IMG/VR virus record: IMGVR_UViG_3300037264_003347
Location: 1-35,926 of that record
Length of the DNA: 35,926 bases
Direction: 5' to 3' (one strand)
Source: a virus
In this document: positions 3,624 to 35,192 of the stretch, piece after piece
Numbering within the stretch: the first letter of the stretch is position 1
Layout of the letters: each line of letters opens with the position of its first letter
Made by a program: the position numbers and the translations under genes
Notes under the pieces: generated by a model
Told to the model about the DNA's origin: nothing
What the model saw: only the letters and a program-made list of their open reading frames with translations
Databases searched by the model: none

Positions 3624-4183
3624 CGCTCACCCCCAACATGGCGACACACAGCAGCGAGCGCGAGCCAATCGGCCTGCGGGTCCGCAGGGTCGATCGAGGC
3701 GATGGCGACGATCGAACCGTAGCCCCAGCCGTCGTGGGTGCGACGGCGAACCGCACCAAGCGCAGCAAGCGAAACCGGGCCGGGGGCGAACTGGATGCAG
3801 CACATGTCCCGCGGCGCGCTGATCGTCTGGAGCGCCCATGCCTGCGACGTGCCGATCCGGTACCACCCCGGCGCCGTCGCCCCGACCTCCAGCCCCACCC
3901 TCTCCGCGAGCCAACGGGCGCAGCGATCGCGGGTCGCGGCGTCGGCGAGGGAAAGTCGTGGCGACTCGACACGTAGCGTCATGTACGCGCAGTCAGTGCC
4001 GGGCGAGTCCTCCCAGCCGTCCGGTGCTGTTGGCCCAGCCAACCAGTCGCCCGGGTAGTCAGGGTCAGGGCACAGCAGCGCCCCGGGCCCGCCGCCGTCG
4101 GTATCCTCCGGCAGAGCAGGCAGCCCCACCGGGTCCAGGCCAGGCACCTCCGACAGTCGCAGCAGCAGGCGAGGGTCGCTCAC
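3620..4183 (-). CDS. Hypothetical protein, 187 residues
   Basis: Assigned from GTG 4183, which overlaps the Ala-rich gene's TGA as GTGA. The frame stays open far upstream, but only because it runs through the repeat array in a meaningless Arg/Glu/Gly frame. The N-terminal ~65 residues are acidic and Pro-rich (LPALPEDTDGGGPGALLCPD). The rest is a mixed alpha/beta domain with an RDRCARWLAERVGLEV helix (near 87-102) and several Trp, Cys and Met residues (PRDMCCIQF). The pattern is consistent with a small soluble phage early protein often seen beside Ala-repeat genes. Function unknown. Confidence 0.7.
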   Translation of the reverse strand: MSDPRLLLRLSEVPGLDPVGLPALPEDTDGGGPGALLCPDPDYPGDWLAGPTAPDGWEDSPGTDCAYMTLRVESPRLSLADAATRDRCARWLAERVGLEVGATAPGWYRIGTSQAWALQTISAPRDMCCIQFAPGPVSLAALGAVRRRTHDGWGYGSIVAIASIDPADPQADWLALAAVCRHVGGER

Positions 4184-5049
4184 GCCGCCTCCCTGGTCAC
4201 GATCCTGGCCTCGATCGCGTCGAGCACCGCCGCGGTGATCCGGTCCGCACTCTCGGCCCTCGCGGCACTCGCGGCCCTCTCGGCACTCGCGGCCCTCGCG
4301 GCACTCGCGGCCCTCGCGGCGCTCGCGGCGCTCGCGGCCCTCGCGGCCCTCTCGGCACTCGCGGCCCTCGCGGCCCTCGCGGCGCTCGCGGCCCTCGCGG
4401 CCCTCTCGGCACTCGCGGCCCTCGCGGCGCTCGCGGCGCTCGCGGCCCTCGCGGCCCTCGCGGCACTCGCGGCCCTCCCGGCCCTCGCGGCGCTCGCGGC
4501 CCTCTCGGCACTCGCGGCACTCGCGGCACTCGCGGCCCTCGCGGCCCACGCGGCGCTCGCGGCCCACGCGGCGCTCGCGGCCCTCTCGGCCCTCTCGGCC
4601 CTCTCGGCCCTCGCGGCCCTCGCGGCGGGTGGCGCGCCTGCCTCCAGCCACGCTAGCACCTCGTCGATCGCCGCCACCACGCCCCACTCGTCGCGGCGGA
4701 CGTGGCTGCGCGCCTCGCGCAGTGCGATCCCCCTCGCCTGGAGGTCCAGCGCTCGCCAGTCCTCCGGCGTCAGCGCGCCCCACCGGCGGGCCAGCCCGGC
4801 GAAACGCCGGACCATTCTTGGCCACGCGGTCGCCGAGCCAGAGTCGTCGAGCCACGGCGTGAGGTTGGCGAGCCAAGGCGGCATTACCTCGGCTGGGCAC
4901 GCCTCCGCGCTCCCCGCATCGCCGGCCTCCGGCGATAGCGCGGCGAGCAAACAGGCGGTCTCCCGCCCGGCGGCGTCAGTGCCACGCCACTCGTGGCGGA
5001 GCAGCCGCCCCTCGGCAATCAGCAGGTCCAGTCGGTCTATCCCCTCCAT
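4180..5049 (-). CDS. Ala-rich tripeptide-repeat protein with conserved N-terminal domain
   Basis: A 289-residue protein from ATG 5049 behind AGGAGGTGAGTC. Residues 1-137 are a unique, Trp-rich domain ([57 protein letters not shown]). I recall similar, functionally unassigned domains from other phages. Residues ~140-267 are a tripeptide-periodic stretch of the form A-A/E/G-R/S/W, predicted as one very long Ala helix with a slowly rotating stripe of Arg/Ser/Glu. The C-terminus ([17 protein letters not shown]) looks like a capping helix. It is the first accessory gene after the DnaB helicase, with its own strong ribosome binding site and a 38-bp gap, so it may be expressed at a higher level than its neighbours. 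Confidence 0.8.
4252..4629 (-). repeat. 9-bp tandem repeat (~42 units) in Ala-rich gene
   Basis: About 42 units of 9 bp (plus strand variants of CGCGGCCCT, CGCGGCACT, CGCGGCGCT and CTCGGCACT). Only two or three positions vary. The variation changes the third residue of each tripeptide among Arg, Ser, Trp and Glu while Ala is kept. No stop appears in any of the six frames over the array, which produces long meaningless Leu/Ala, Pro/Arg/Gly and Arg/Glu/Gly frames. Confidence 0.95.
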
Positions 5050-31014: not shown

Positions 31015-31407
31015 ATGCGACGACCGTTCAGCACGATCTTGGAAGTGACTCTGACTACGGGCCTCGCGAGTCGCGAGCTTCTCGGCGAGTATGTTTCTGG
31101 TGAGGTGTTCGCCTACACCGTACGTGCCAGCGCTGCCACGAACGCGAACATGGACTTCTACCTGGTAGATCGCCTCGCTGACAGCGGCGATGACGACACC
31201 CCGGCGGCCAACGCTGCGGCGGAGTACCGGGTGGTGGACGACACGACGAACACGCCGGACGTTAGCGCCACGGAGAAGTTCATGGGCTCGGTGTTGGCGT
31301 ACCCGATGCCGTTCAAGAACGGGCTCCGTGTCTACTTCAATACCACTGGCGGCGCTGGGGGCACCTACATCGTCGAGGTCCGGGGCTGGACCGGGGACGC
31401 AGCATGA
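31015..31407 (+). CDS. Small virion protein, paralogue of the gene at 34095
   Basis: A 130-residue beta-rich protein from ATG 31015, with GTGGAGGCGAG upstream. Its C-terminus (YPMPFKNGLRVYFNTTGG, then GGTYIVEVRGW) matches the C-terminus of the protein at 34095-34466 (TVPFKNGLWVQVQGVGG, SGTYLVSLRG). Its central EVFAYTVRASAATNANMDFY corresponds to ETYTARCASGAGHVTVEVYV there. The two are therefore paralogues. It precedes the spike-like gene directly (ATGA overlap), and could be an attachment or capping protein for it. Confidence 0.7.
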   Translation: MRRPFSTILEVTLTTGLASRELLGEYVSGEVFAYTVRASAATNANMDFYLVDRLADSGDDDTPAANAAAEYRVVDDTTNTPDVSATEKFMGSVLAYPMPFKNGLRVYFNTTGGAGGTYIVEVRGWTGDAA

Positions 31408-32942
31408 GCCGGACATGGCCGCCGCCGAGCGCTGATGGTGTCGTCTCCGCGCTGGAGGGGGGCAACGCCACCGACGGCTCTTGGTTGGTGTACGACCCGG
31501 GGGCGCGCCTCGTTGGCGGTGCAGTGACCAGGGTGAACGGAACGCACAAGCACCTGGCGACCTGGGCGCTGGGGCTGGCGGGCACCACGATGGCGCAGGG
31601 GATCACCCTGTACCGGCGGATCCGCGACGCCGACGGCAACTACCCGAGCAACGAGCGTGGGTGTCCGCACCGCATCACCGCAGCGTGGGCGGGGCGGCTG
31701 CTGATGACCAGCGCCCACCGGATGATCTTGCTGTGCGGGTACGCTTCCGGCCCGCCGACCGACGGGGCCAGCATCGTCCGTCTGTACGGTATGCAGGATG
31801 GAACCGCTGGGAACATCCAGGTGAACGGTCGGATGTTTGGGACAGTCGCGGCATCGACGTACAGTCCGGGAGTCACGTCCACGCACCGGACACGGCAATG
31901 CTCGGTGATGCTGCCACGCATGTCGAACCAGTGCGCGATCCCCATCCTGCCGGGCACCGCCCCGGACGGGAACCGGGACGGGCTCAACACGGTGCGCAAC
32001 ACGTACACCGCCAACATCGACGAGGAGTTCGGGAACGAGGCGGAGGTTTACGAGTATATCTACATCGGCTGCGGTGCCGTCACCGTCGCCGACGTGCCGA
32101 TCTACTTCACCTTCGAGTCCGGCCTCATCGGCCCGAACGACAGCGGCTACCACTACAGCCCGGAGATGGGCGGCGCGCAGGAGCCGCTTCGCATCTACTG
32201 CGACGGCGACAGCAGGTGGTTCGGTGGCGCGGGTGGCGGCGGGGCTGGCGGCTACCCTGGCCTCCAGCGAGCGCTGGCCGAGTTCGAGCTGCGCCGCACC
32301 AGTGGTGCCCGCCGCCAACCGGTGCACTGTGTGGGGTACACCGGCTCGGGCATCGGGGTGGCGCCGTCGGCGTTCGGTGTCGATGGCCAGGTGGACACGG
32401 GGGCTGCTTCAGGCCGCGCGCTAACCGATAGCGTGGCCGACATCGCGGCGCGCATGACCTCGATCGGCAATGCCGGTCGGGATCTGCGAAACGGAGATCT
32501 CTTCCTGCTGTTCTTGGGAACGAATGATGCCGTGGCCTTGCGGACGGAGCCGCAGATGCGGGCAGACGTGGTGACGATCGCCGGGCTGGTGAAGGCTGCG
32601 TTTCCGAACTGCCGGGTGATCTTCGCCTTTACCCGAGGTGTTGGTTTCCCGCAGTACATCTTGTTGTGGCAAGGGATTGTCGCCTCCTTGCCTGCGAACG
32701 TGGATGGGTACCTCGACTTCGCGTCCTGGTTCACCGACGCGTTCGTGGTCTCCGGCCCGGACTCGCACCCGTCGTTGCCCCCATCGCCGACCGGCCTTGC
32801 TGCCTGGGATCCGCCCCTCCTGATGGACCCGGCCGCTGCGGACTTCACCCAGTATGGGATCTGCGCGATGGCTTACCACCTGTTTCGCTACATACACGGC
32901 GTTACCCCACCGCTTCTTGCGGGCGAGGTTGCGCCGGTCTAG
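31404..32942 (+). CDS. Tail spike/appendage with SGNH-hydrolase-like domain
   Basis: A 512-residue protein from ATG 31404. Residues 1-255 are an all-beta, Gly/Thr-rich module. Residues 256-500 have SGNH-hydrolase features: block I YCDGDSRWFGG (266-276) with candidate nucleophile S270, Gly-containing VGYTGSGIGV (310-319), block III GTND (372-375), and a beta-strand VIFAFTRG before a C-terminal helix. Such domains deacetylate or cleave surface polysaccharides in phage spikes. Block V is unusual: where DxxHLTxxGY is expected the sequence is AADFTQYGI, with aspartate (D480) in place of His. A D453-S-H455 pair lies 25 residues earlier. The enzyme could therefore be active through H455 or be an inactive binding domain. 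It is the strongest host-range candidate in the window. Confidence 0.7.
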   Translation: MSRTWPPPSADGVVSALEGGNATDGSWLVYDPGARLVGGAVTRVNGTHKHLATWALGLAGTTMAQGITLYRRIRDADGNYPSNERGCPHRITAAWAGRLLMTSAHRMILLCGYASGPPTDGASIVRLYGMQDGTAGNIQVNGRMFGTVAASTYSPGVTSTHRTRQCSVMLPRMSNQCAIPILPGTAPDGNRDGLNTVRNTYTANIDEEFGNEAEVYEYIYIGCGAVTVADVPIYFTFESGLIGPNDSGYHYSPEMGGAQEPLRIYCDGDSRWFGGAGGGGAGGYPGLQRALAEFELRRTSGARRQPVHCVGYTGSGIGVAPSAFGVDGQVDTGAASGRALTDSVADIAARMTSIGNAGRDLRNGDLFLLFLGTNDAVALRTEPQMRADVVTIAGLVKAAFPNCRVIFAFTRGVGFPQYILLWQGIVASLPANVDGYLDFASWFTDAFVVSGPDSHPSLPPSPTGLAAWDPPLLMDPAAADFTQYGICAMAYHLFRYIHGVTPPLLAGEVAPV

Positions 32943-32950
32943 GGGTTGTC

Positions 32951-33217
32951 ATGGCCGCGGACGATGTGATCTCCTTACTCATCAAGACCTCCTCGGAGGA
33001 GCGCAAGCTTCAGACCAAGGAGTTCACCGAGGCGTTGGACAAGCTCGGCGAGCGGATGGTTCGCACAGTGTGGCTGGCGGGGGCGTGCGTGATTGTGGCG
33101 CTCATCCTCCAGTCAGGGATCCCCGCTGCGTTCGAGGGGTTCGGCTTCAAGTTCTCGACGGCAGCGGTGGCCGCTGAAGGCCCCGAGCCGGCGGATGCGG
33201 CGGTCATCCCGCCATGA
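32951..33217 (+). CDS. Single-TM small membrane protein, holin candidate
   Basis: An 88-residue protein from ATG 32951 (GGGGTTGTC upstream). Residues 1-38 are charged and helical (SSEERKLQTKEFTEALDKLG). Residues ~39-61 form one membrane helix (TVWLAGACVIVALILQSGIP). A short Phe/Ala stretch and acidic tail follow. Small size and one or two membrane segments fit class III holins or XhlA-like membrane partners. The endolysin is 1.5 kb away, with two structural genes between. No other holin is obvious on the plus strand. Topology would likely be N-in, C-out. ATGA overlap with next gene. Confidence 0.55.
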   Translation: MAADDVISLLIKTSSEERKLQTKEFTEALDKLGERMVRTVWLAGACVIVALILQSGIPAAFEGFGFKFSTAAVAAEGPEPADAAVIPP

Positions 33218-34098
33218 CCCCGGCGCGCGAGCACCTCTCCTCGGCGCTGCGCCGGGCGCTCGCCATCACAGAGGAGTTGCTGCGGTCCCTGCTGCGGCAG
33301 TTGTCGAGGATTCTGGCCGCCATTACAAACATCACCACTACGTCTGGTGACGGGGGGCGCGTTGCTCTCGACGTGGCGATGTACTCGCCGGGCCTCGCGC
33401 TTTCCTTTGCGGGCAAAGCGAATACCGCCGCTCTGGTGGAGGTGCCGTTCTCGGCTACGGTGTACACAGAGCAGGCGGCCAACGGACAGCGAAGCATCTC
33501 GTCCACGTCGGTGCTTGATGCCGCCGCCGGGACTGGTGCTAGGACGGTGGGGCTTACCTATTACTCGCTGGTAGCCGGTGTCGTCACCGGTCCATTCACC
33601 GAAACCCTTACACTCAACGGCATTGTGGCGGTGAACACGGTGGCGACGAATATCTGCTTCATCGCCAAGATGGAGGTGCTCACGGCAGGAGTCGGCGGCG
33701 TTAACGCTGGCATCATCCAGCTGTTCACCTTGATCGCTGGAGGCGGGATAGTGTTCGCCTCGATCGCGGTTTCCGACCGGAGGACTTTTCTCGGGCTAAC
33801 CTACATTCCCACTGGGGCTGACCTGTATCTGACCGGCGTTGTGATTGCGTCTACGGCAAGCACCGGCAACGTGCCCCAGGCATCACTGCGCAGCATGCGG
33901 TACGACGTGGCAGCAGCAGCCGAGGCGGTGGTTCACGACAGGGTTTCCGTGCAGGGCCACACCGGTAGCAACACGATCCACTATCGAACCCCCCATCGCG
34001 TCACCGGGCCCGCGAGACTGCGCGCGTATGTGACGCCTGAGAACGTGCTGGCGCAGGTGCAGAGCTTGAACGCTACATACTATCAGGTGCCAGCATGA
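33214..34098 (+). CDS. Virion structural protein, 294 residues
   Basis: From ATG 33214. Residues 1-40 are a helical segment (ALAITEELLRSLLRQLSRIL) that might anchor or trimerise. Residues 60-294 are beta-rich. Around 95-120 the phrase SSTSVLDAAAGTGARTVGLT, and further on NGIVAVNTVATNICFIAKM and the Gly-rich VLTAGVGGVNAGIIQLF, match a pattern I recall from structural proteins of several phages (…AAxGTGARTVxIxY…). No enzyme motif. Located between the holin candidate and the second paralogous small protein. Probable tail- or capsid-attached protein. Confidence 0.7.
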   Translation: MTPAREHLSSALRRALAITEELLRSLLRQLSRILAAITNITTTSGDGGRVALDVAMYSPGLALSFAGKANTAALVEVPFSATVYTEQAANGQRSISSTSVLDAAAGTGARTVGLTYYSLVAGVVTGPFTETLTLNGIVAVNTVATNICFIAKMEVLTAGVGGVNAGIIQLFTLIAGGGIVFASIAVSDRRTFLGLTYIPTGADLYLTGVVIASTASTGNVPQASLRSMRYDVAAAAEAVVHDRVSVQGHTGSNTIHYRTPHRVTGPARLRAYVTPENVLAQVQSLNATYYQVPA

Positions 34099-34466
34099 CC
34101 ACGCCGTTCAAAGAGCAAGTGCAGGTGGTGCTGTCGTCGGTGGGCTGGGCTGCGGTAGAGGTGTTCGCCTCGGAGTCGGGCTGGCTCGAGACGTACACAG
34201 CGCGCTGTGCCAGCGGGGCCGGCCATGTCACGGTCGAGGTATACGTGTGCGACGGGCCGCTACCTCCCGGCCCGCCAGCCGCCGCGCCTACATTCGAGGA
34301 CCAGTTGGCCAGCGAGCTTGGCCTGGGGGCGGCGACGCTCGCCGCGGGCGTGCGTCTCGTGCCGGCCCGGACGGTGCCGTTCAAGAACGGGCTGTGGGTG
34401 CAGGTGCAAGGCGTCGGCGGCACCTCGGGAACGTACCTCGTTAGCCTACGGGGGGTGCTGATATGA
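34095..34466 (+). CDS. Small virion protein, paralogue of the gene at 31015
   Basis: A 123-residue beta-rich protein from ATG 34095 (ATGA overlap). It shares a C-terminal module (PFKNGLWVQVQ, SGTYLVSLRG) and the central TYTARCAS region with the protein at 31015-31407. A Pro-rich loop (PLPPGPPAAAPTFEDQLA) is inserted in the middle. The pair brackets the spike, holin candidate and structural gene. It could be a capping or attachment subunit for the appendage. The stop overlaps a tiny downstream ORF as ATGA. Confidence 0.7.
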   Translation: MTTPFKEQVQVVLSSVGWAAVEVFASESGWLETYTARCASGAGHVTVEVYVCDGPLPPGPPAAAPTFEDQLASELGLGAATLAAGVRLVPARTVPFKNGLWVQVQGVGGTSGTYLVSLRGVLI

Positions 34467-34522
34467 GCCAACCCCTCCCACCGTTGCCACCACCGAAGCC
34501 ACAACCCAGGAGTTGCTCATGA
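34463..34522 (+). CDS. Tiny Pro-rich 19-codon ORF
   Basis: MSQPLPPLPPPKPQPRSCS, 19 residues, with ATGA overlaps at both ends: ATG 34463 on the previous stop, and its TGA 34520-34522 on the next ATG. The Shine-Dalgarno of the next gene (CCAGGAGTTGCTC) lies inside it. The exact frame at both junctions suggests it is translated, either as a small product or as a ribosome relay that couples the structural operon to the lysis genes. No function is evident. Confidence 0.4.
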   Translation: MSQPLPPLPPPKPQPRSCS

Positions 34523-34746
34523 TCACCAGCGGAAGTCGAGCAGCAGCAGAAGCGAAGGCCCACGCCCGGGGCCTCACCCTCCCTCCGGTGCCGGTGGACA
34601 GGCAGGCGGTGCCCGATGTCCACGTCCCGGTCATCGCCGTGTCCGCCTCGGTGGCGGCAGCGGTGGCGAAGGCAGCGAGCAAGGCGGTCAAGGCGGTCAA
34701 GGCGGTGGTCAAGGCCGTCGCCCCGAAGAAGGGGAAGGGCAAGTGA
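34519..34746 (+). CDS. Cationic amphipathic-helix lysis protein (disruptin candidate)
   Basis: A 75-residue protein from ATG 34519 (TTG two codons earlier is open too, but ATG follows CCAGGAG). Residues ~40-66 (VIAVSASVAAAVAKAASKAV, then KAVKAVVKAVA) form a helix with lysines at spacings of 4, 3, 3 and 4, all on one face, and Ala/Val on the other. The helix is followed by PKKGKGK. This is the pattern of membrane-active cationic peptides, and of phage disruptins that break the outer membrane in phages without spanins. Residues 1-39 are a Pro-containing soluble leader. It directly precedes and overlaps the endolysin (GTGA). No spanin pair was recognised. DNA-binding (histone-like) is the main alternative. 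Confidence 0.6.
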   Translation: MITSGSRAAAEAKAHARGLTLPPVPVDRQAVPDVHVPVIAVSASVAAAVAKAASKAVKAVKAVVKAVAPKKGKGK

Positions 34747-35192
34747 ACCTCTCGCCCCACTTCACCCTTGCCGAGCTGTCGGTCACCGAGGTGCGTCACC
34801 TCCAGGCCACCAACCGCAGGGCGGCCGAGGGGTTCGTGACCACGTTGATGATCTTGTGCTCCATGCTGGAGAAGGTGCGCACCCTGTGCGGCGACCGGCC
34901 GGTGGTGATCCACTCCGGGTTCCGCAGCCCGGAGTTGAACAAGGCCATCGGCGGCAGTAAATATTCGCAGCATTCCAAGGGTGAAGCTGCCGACTTCCAC
35001 ATCGCCGGCCTCGACCTGCGCCGCGCCTTCGACCTCATCCGCAAGGCGGACCTATCGTTCGGCCAGCTCATCCTCGAGGATGGCGACGGTGATGGTGTCC
35101 CCACCTGGATACACGTCAGCCTCTCGTCGGAGAGGCACAGCCGCCAGGTGCTGACCTTCGACGGCACGGACTACCACCCCGTCAGCCCGTAG
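34743..35192 (+). CDS. Endolysin, peptidase M15-type (L,D/D,D-carboxypeptidase fold)
   Basis: A 149-residue protein from GTG 34743. The zinc-peptidase motif SGFRSPELNKAIGGSKYSQH (58-77) followed by SKGEAADFH gives H77 and D84 as zinc ligands. WIHVSL (123-128) gives the third ligand, H124, and EDGDG (112-116) lies near the catalytic acid. This corresponds to M15A enzymes that cut peptide stems or cross-links of peptidoglycan. The length is that of a single catalytic domain without a binding module or signal peptide, so export would need a holin. It terminates the plus-strand late operon and overlaps a convergent minus gene by 11 bases. Confidence 0.9.
   Translation: MNLSPHFTLAELSVTEVRHLQATNRRAAEGFVTTLMILCSMLEKVRTLCGDRPVVIHSGFRSPELNKAIGGSKYSQHSKGEAADFHIAGLDLRRAFDLIRKADLSFGQLILEDGDGDGVPTWIHVSLSSERHSRQVLTFDGTDYHPVSP

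Follow-up and report, generated by a model that had tools for sequence, protein, structure and literature searches.

A small cationic protein encoded directly before a phage M15 endolysin as a possible disruptin-like lysis protein

A gene for a small cationic protein of 75 residues lies immediately before the M15 peptidase endolysin gene in the window, that is, the whole 35,926-base stretch of viral DNA analysed here. Judging from its coding statistics, its Shine-Dalgarno (SD) sequence and its GTGA overlap with the endolysin gene, it is very probably a real gene that is translationally coupled to the endolysin. Disruptins are phage-encoded antimicrobial-type peptides that are too diverse for systematic prediction (PMC12819732), and by our weighing of the evidence no other specific function of this candidate is as likely as a disruptin-like role, to which we give a rough probability of one in three. 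Since the protein is small, cationic, amphipathic and endolysin-coupled, no spanin was detected in the contig and the host probably has two membranes, this function is a reasonable hypothesis, and not a demonstration. Ranked below it were, in this order, a gene serving mainly for translational coupling, a nucleic-acid-binding protein and an accessory of the holin/endolysin step.

The candidate gene and its neighbourhood

The genes discussed here are the following.

32951..33217, plus strand: 88-aa protein with a single transmembrane segment (best 19-mer: octanol score -5.4) and an acidic Pro/Ala-rich tail
34095..34466, plus strand: 123-aa protein, paralogue of the product of 31018-31407 (BLASTP 32% over 124 positions, E = 3e-11)
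34463..34522, plus strand: possible 19-aa Pro-rich minigene, MSQPLPPLPPPKPQPRSCS, with ATGA overlaps with the 34095-34466 gene and with the candidate gene
34519..34746, plus strand: candidate gene, 75-aa protein with a net charge of +10
34743..35192, plus strand: M15 peptidase endolysin, 149 aa, GTG start (PF08291, E = 5.8e-18; phrog_894 endolysin, E = 7.3e-29)

The initial annotation had placed a 75-residue reading frame just before the endolysin, and this was confirmed, with phage-like coding statistics. The GC content at the three codon positions of the candidate (0.71/0.54/0.84) agrees with that of the large structural genes of the contig, and its codon likelihood is +0.23 in frame and negative in both remaining forward frames (-0.58 and -0.43). 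The ATG is preceded by AGGAG with a gap of 6 nt, an in-frame TTG two codons upstream is an alternative start, and the stop codon TGA overlaps the GTG start of the endolysin by 4 nt. The encoded protein is MITSGSRAAAEAKAHARGLTLPPVPVDRQAVPDVHVPVIAVSASVAAAVAKAASKAVKAVKAVVKAVAPKKGKGK.

The 123-aa protein and its paralogue (31018-31407 and 34095-34466, both on the plus strand) flank an SGNH-hydrolase-like gene at 31404-32942, and neither member of the pair had a family match. The 88-aa product of 32951-33217 is likely, from its sequence, to be a holin or holin-like protein and is the best holin candidate in the contig; it showed a weak colinear match to the transmembrane protein preceding the M15 gene of locus L007 (27%, E = 0.006). 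The M15 start of loci L005 and L007 is overlapped by a gene for a near-neutral protein of 56-57 aa unrelated to the candidate, and in many other M15 relatives a transmembrane holin-like protein is found directly before the M15 gene. Because the slot is filled by such proteins, it appears from these comparisons to belong to the lysis cassette, with a variable occupant. Clear family matches in the contig were obtained only for the terminase, the M15 endolysin, DnaB, ERF and a pentapeptide-repeat gene, so that the identity as a podovirus is unproven here. No tRNA genes were found.

Several other small genes were seen around M15 genes. Just past the endolysin of the window, two tiny membrane-like ORFs of 36 and 41 aa (35292-35182 and 35507-35382, minus strand), each preceded by GGAGGTGACC, are convergent to the lysis genes. 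Two-helix small proteins of 50-61 aa (for example ...GPRSPGGRKVTAEEGKAIAQDA...) recur near the M15 gene in L005, L007, L008, L009, L014 and L017, and the M15 genes of L074, L030 and L047 have nearby a gene for a small, very basic protein of the phrog_16028 kind (MxxGLYANIxAKxKRI...). In L074 this gene occupies the slot and overlaps the M15 start.

Candidate homologues were sought in viral contigs, annotated phages, 14 related-M15 records, Pfam, PHROGs, NCBIfam and PDB, and nothing meaningful was obtained in these searches, which does not prove uniqueness. Thus the candidate has no homologue from which an assignment could be carried over. The search for homologues beside endolysins, proposed earlier as a check, likewise gave none, the L005/L007 slot protein being unrelated. 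Relatives of the phage itself were not found in viral contigs through the presumed major capsid, terminase and portal proteins or the 1706-aa, 294-aa and 123-aa proteins, by short-pattern searches that are insensitive.

The C-terminal helix and the DNA that encodes it

The protein is laid out as a helix at residues 4-16, a Pro-rich linker at about 19-40, a cationic amphipathic helix at 43-67 and a basic tail at 70-75. The two helices (4-16 and 43-67) were predicted by a single-sequence AF2 model, the second at a pLDDT of 80-86. The hydrophobic moment of this 25-residue helix was 0.478, compared with 0.171 +/- 0.085 in shuffled sequences (p = 0.0004, for a segment picked post hoc), and the corresponding test of the best 18-mer over the whole protein, which has a moment of 0.577, was weaker (p = 0.041). 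The moment of the helix was maximal at 100 degrees per residue. On the helical wheel, Lys residues lie at 0-120 degrees and Val residues at 200-320 degrees, and the clustering of Lys gave p = 0.019. Residues 43-75 carry +9 of the net charge of +10. Taken together, the model, the moment, the wheel and the charge uphold the earlier description of a C-terminal cationic amphipathic helix with a basic tail, and the helical-wheel check proposed with it came out positive.

An equally high moment by itself is common enough, being found in 10% of the 75-aa pieces of large phage ORFs. None of 1,487 such pieces combined an 18-mer moment of at least 0.577 with a charge of at least +4 and a mean hydrophobicity of at least 0, limits that were fixed after the candidate was known. 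Among the SD-bearing small ORFs of all loci compared, the candidate alone combined such a moment with its Ala/Lys/Val content.

The helix consists of Ala, Val and Lys with one Ser; its apolar face is made of Ala and Val only and contains no aromatic residue, Leu or Ile. The best 19-mer of the protein had an octanol score of +3.1, that is, no transmembrane segment. The interfacial energy including helix formation (Wimley-White) was -2.4 kcal/mol for the candidate helix versus -11.2 kcal/mol for most of phiKT gp28, a crude estimate in which -0.4 kcal was added per helical residue and the lengths were 25 and 50 residues, respectively. This estimate suggests that the helix would be a weak membrane binder relying mainly on charge. 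An amphipathic helix is predicted, and its calculated membrane binding is much weaker than that of gp28.

Part of the pattern coincides with two features of the DNA.

34680..34706, plus strand: the 9-bp unit CAAGGCGGT in three perfect tandem copies (Tandem Repeats Finder), encoding KAV-KAV-KAV, residues 55-63
34726..34742, plus strand: purine-rich stretch encoding the tail KKGKGK and forming the endolysin SD region (anti-SD duplex, Lys statistics)

Short-period arrays also occur elsewhere in the contig, with a 9-bp unit in 42 copies (4250-4626), a 6-bp unit in 22 copies (244-376) and a 15-bp unit in 12 copies (2462-2644), and a periodic peptide can be produced by slippage without selection. 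The 9-bp array of approximately 42 copies belongs to a short-period repeat gene at 4183-5049 on the minus strand, the 6-bp array has a YG/DG-rich frame, and the gene at 2119-2757 on the minus strand encodes a pentapeptide-repeat protein (PF00805, E = 3e-22). Outside the KAV triplet repeat, the candidate nevertheless has further residues on the fitting faces of the helix, namely Val 45, 49, 64 and 67 and the lysines 51 and 65.

The stretch AAGAAGGGGAAGGGCAAG, which codes for the tail KKGKGK, runs up to and into the endolysin GTG, and the 20 nt before this GTG (34743) form an anti-SD duplex of -7.9 kcal/mol, the strongest among the six starts compared. Among 191 upstream ORFs that have the same stop/start overlap, Lys accounted for 11.5% of the last six residues versus 3.7% of the body, an approximately 3-fold enrichment, and 3 of the 191 tails, the candidate included, were equally Lys-rich. 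Because the DNA of the tail is also the endolysin SD and Lys is enriched in coupled tails, the basic tail, which carries 4 of the 10 net charges, is at least partly an effect of the ribosome-binding site. This matters for disruptin searches in general, since a Lys-rich C-terminus is to be expected in a protein encoded directly before an endolysin gene when the same DNA provides the ribosome-binding site of the latter.

Spanins, host and alternative functions

A six-frame scan for a signal sequence plus lipobox with any start detected no o-spanin or u-spanin candidate in the 35,926-base contig, which is linear and incomplete. As a control, the scan detected in L015 a lipoprotein that is Pro-rich and Rz1-like and lies downstream of the M15 gene. 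It also recovered a conserved 52-aa ORF in L005, L007 and L009 (MTRDD...LAGCSASLPYGRPG...), a possible lipoprotein with a lipobox, located on the minus strand at approximately 3.6-4.5 kb from the M15 gene. An internal start at 33035 with the motif LAGAC was rejected as a lipoprotein because the hydrophobic stretch extends past the Cys. The earlier remark that no spanin was seen thus holds, by a scan with a working control, for this contig only; the contig has no end repeat and ORFs run off both ends, so that a spanin may lie out of view.

Relatives of the M15 protein were found in phages of Pelagibacter, Stenotrophomonas, Caulobacter, Burkholderia and similar hosts, and 21 of its 22 genome matches were in Proteobacteria or Bacteroidota. 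The DnaB relatives were mixed, Gram-positive phages included, and uninformative on the host. A two-membrane (Gram-negative) host is likely from these relationships, and since the M15 relatives belong almost entirely to two-membrane hosts or their phages, an outer-membrane step of lysis is expected.

The features of the candidate might also be explained with little contribution of the peptide itself. According to this explanation, slippage of the 9-bp unit expanded KAV, the SD within AAGAAGGGGAAGGGCAAG keeps the tail basic, the product is of low complexity, and the main role of the gene is to couple endolysin translation to the operon. The perfect repeat, the 42-copy and 22-copy arrays, the strong SD duplex, the Lys enrichment in coupled tails and the failure to find conservation of the candidate all agree with it, and we regard it as possible, though doubtful. 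Nevertheless, the segregation of Lys and Val exceeds what the repeat provides, and so Lys-rich a tail is rare among coupled genes. The disruptin-like reading is in turn weakened by the origin of KAV in a DNA repeat and by the identity of the tail DNA with the endolysin SD, as well as by the weak calculated membrane binding, the lack of a homologue and the near-neutral slot protein of L005 and L007, where the upstream transmembrane gene is similar.

A small basic DNA- or RNA-binding protein of the histone-H1-like or HU-tail-like kind, packaged or acting on nucleic acid and adjacent to the endolysin only incidentally, is unlikely in our estimation. The Ala/Lys/Val/Pro composition and the APKKGKGK tail do resemble such proteins, and Lys-rich, very basic small proteins are encoded near the M15 genes of other aquatic phages, such as the phrog_16028 protein of L074. 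However, H1-like tails are Pro-interrupted and unstructured, whereas the Lys residues of the candidate lie on one helix face; moreover, its gene is translationally tied to the endolysin, and neither a DNA-binding nor any other nucleic-acid-binding family was matched in Pfam, PHROG or NCBIfam, nor was there a meaningful sequence match in PDB. Improbable to a greater degree is an accessory of the holin/endolysin step, such as an antiholin or an endolysin-release partner, acting at the inner and not the outer membrane. The slot directly before the endolysin, which holds a transmembrane holin-like protein in many M15 relatives, and the mild hydrophobicity of residues 36-54 (mean Kyte-Doolittle 1.68) are in line with it, but the octanol score of the candidate indicates no transmembrane segment, in contrast to that of the 32951 protein. 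On the same score, the candidate was rejected as a transmembrane holin.

If the candidate does act as a disruptin, it would be a late protein of the lysis cassette co-produced with the M15 endolysin through translational coupling, as read from the 4-nt overlap and the internal SD. A holin, perhaps the single-transmembrane product of 32951-33217, would open the inner membrane and allow the peptide to reach the envelope. There its Lys face may bind LPS and displace divalent cations, and its Ala/Val face may enter the outer membrane. In this manner the peptide would finish lysis without spanins, the function reported for phiKT gp28, with no identity to the gp28 family claimed.

Comparison with known systems

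Lambda-type Rz/Rz1 and unimolecular spanins would fill the outer-membrane step as the candidate might. Spanins have a signal sequence, lipobox or transmembrane segment, whereas the candidate has none of the three and was rejected as a spanin for this reason. In a survey of 677 phages of Gram-negative hosts, no spanin was found in 91, approximately 13% (PMC6139136). Histone-H1-like and HU-tail proteins share with the candidate a Lys/Ala-rich composition with Pro and a KKGKGK-type end, but differ in the absence of a family match and in the segregation of Lys described above.

The 56-57-aa protein of L005 and L007 (M(A)MHLTPxIINLIHDLAKAIGPRSPGGRK...) takes the position of the candidate, with its stop overlapping the M15 start, and shares amphipathic helices with it (maximum 18-mer moment of 0.60 in L007). 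It differs in that its charge is only +2, its sequence is unrelated and it recurs in several phages.

The closest functional parallel would be gp28 of Escherichia phage phiKT (YP_007006611.1, from NC_019520), a short amphipathic helical peptide that finishes lysis in place of spanins (PMC12819732). It consists of 56 aa with a charge of +7 and belongs to phrog_35982, whereas the candidate matched no PHROG. Both proteins are small and cationic with a high hydrophobic moment, both genes touch the endolysin gene, and no spanin has been identified in the phiKT phage, as in the incomplete contig of the candidate. In contrast, the gp28 gene follows the endolysin gene and the candidate gene precedes the M15 peptidase gene; gp28 contains Trp, Phe, Tyr, Leu and Ile, while the candidate has its Ala/Val/Lys helix and a Pro-rich linker; and the two gave no BLASTP alignment at E<=100. 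The sequence style is thus different from that of gp28, in line with the different style noted in the initial annotation, and its sequence places the candidate outside the gp28 family. It may, tentatively, represent an independently evolved disruptin type, unrelated in sequence, whose minimal helix of Ala, Val and Lys arose in part through duplication of a 9-bp codon triplet and which is translationally coupled to an M15 endolysin. If this is true, the candidate is an independent example of a disruptin with a very simple sequence rule.
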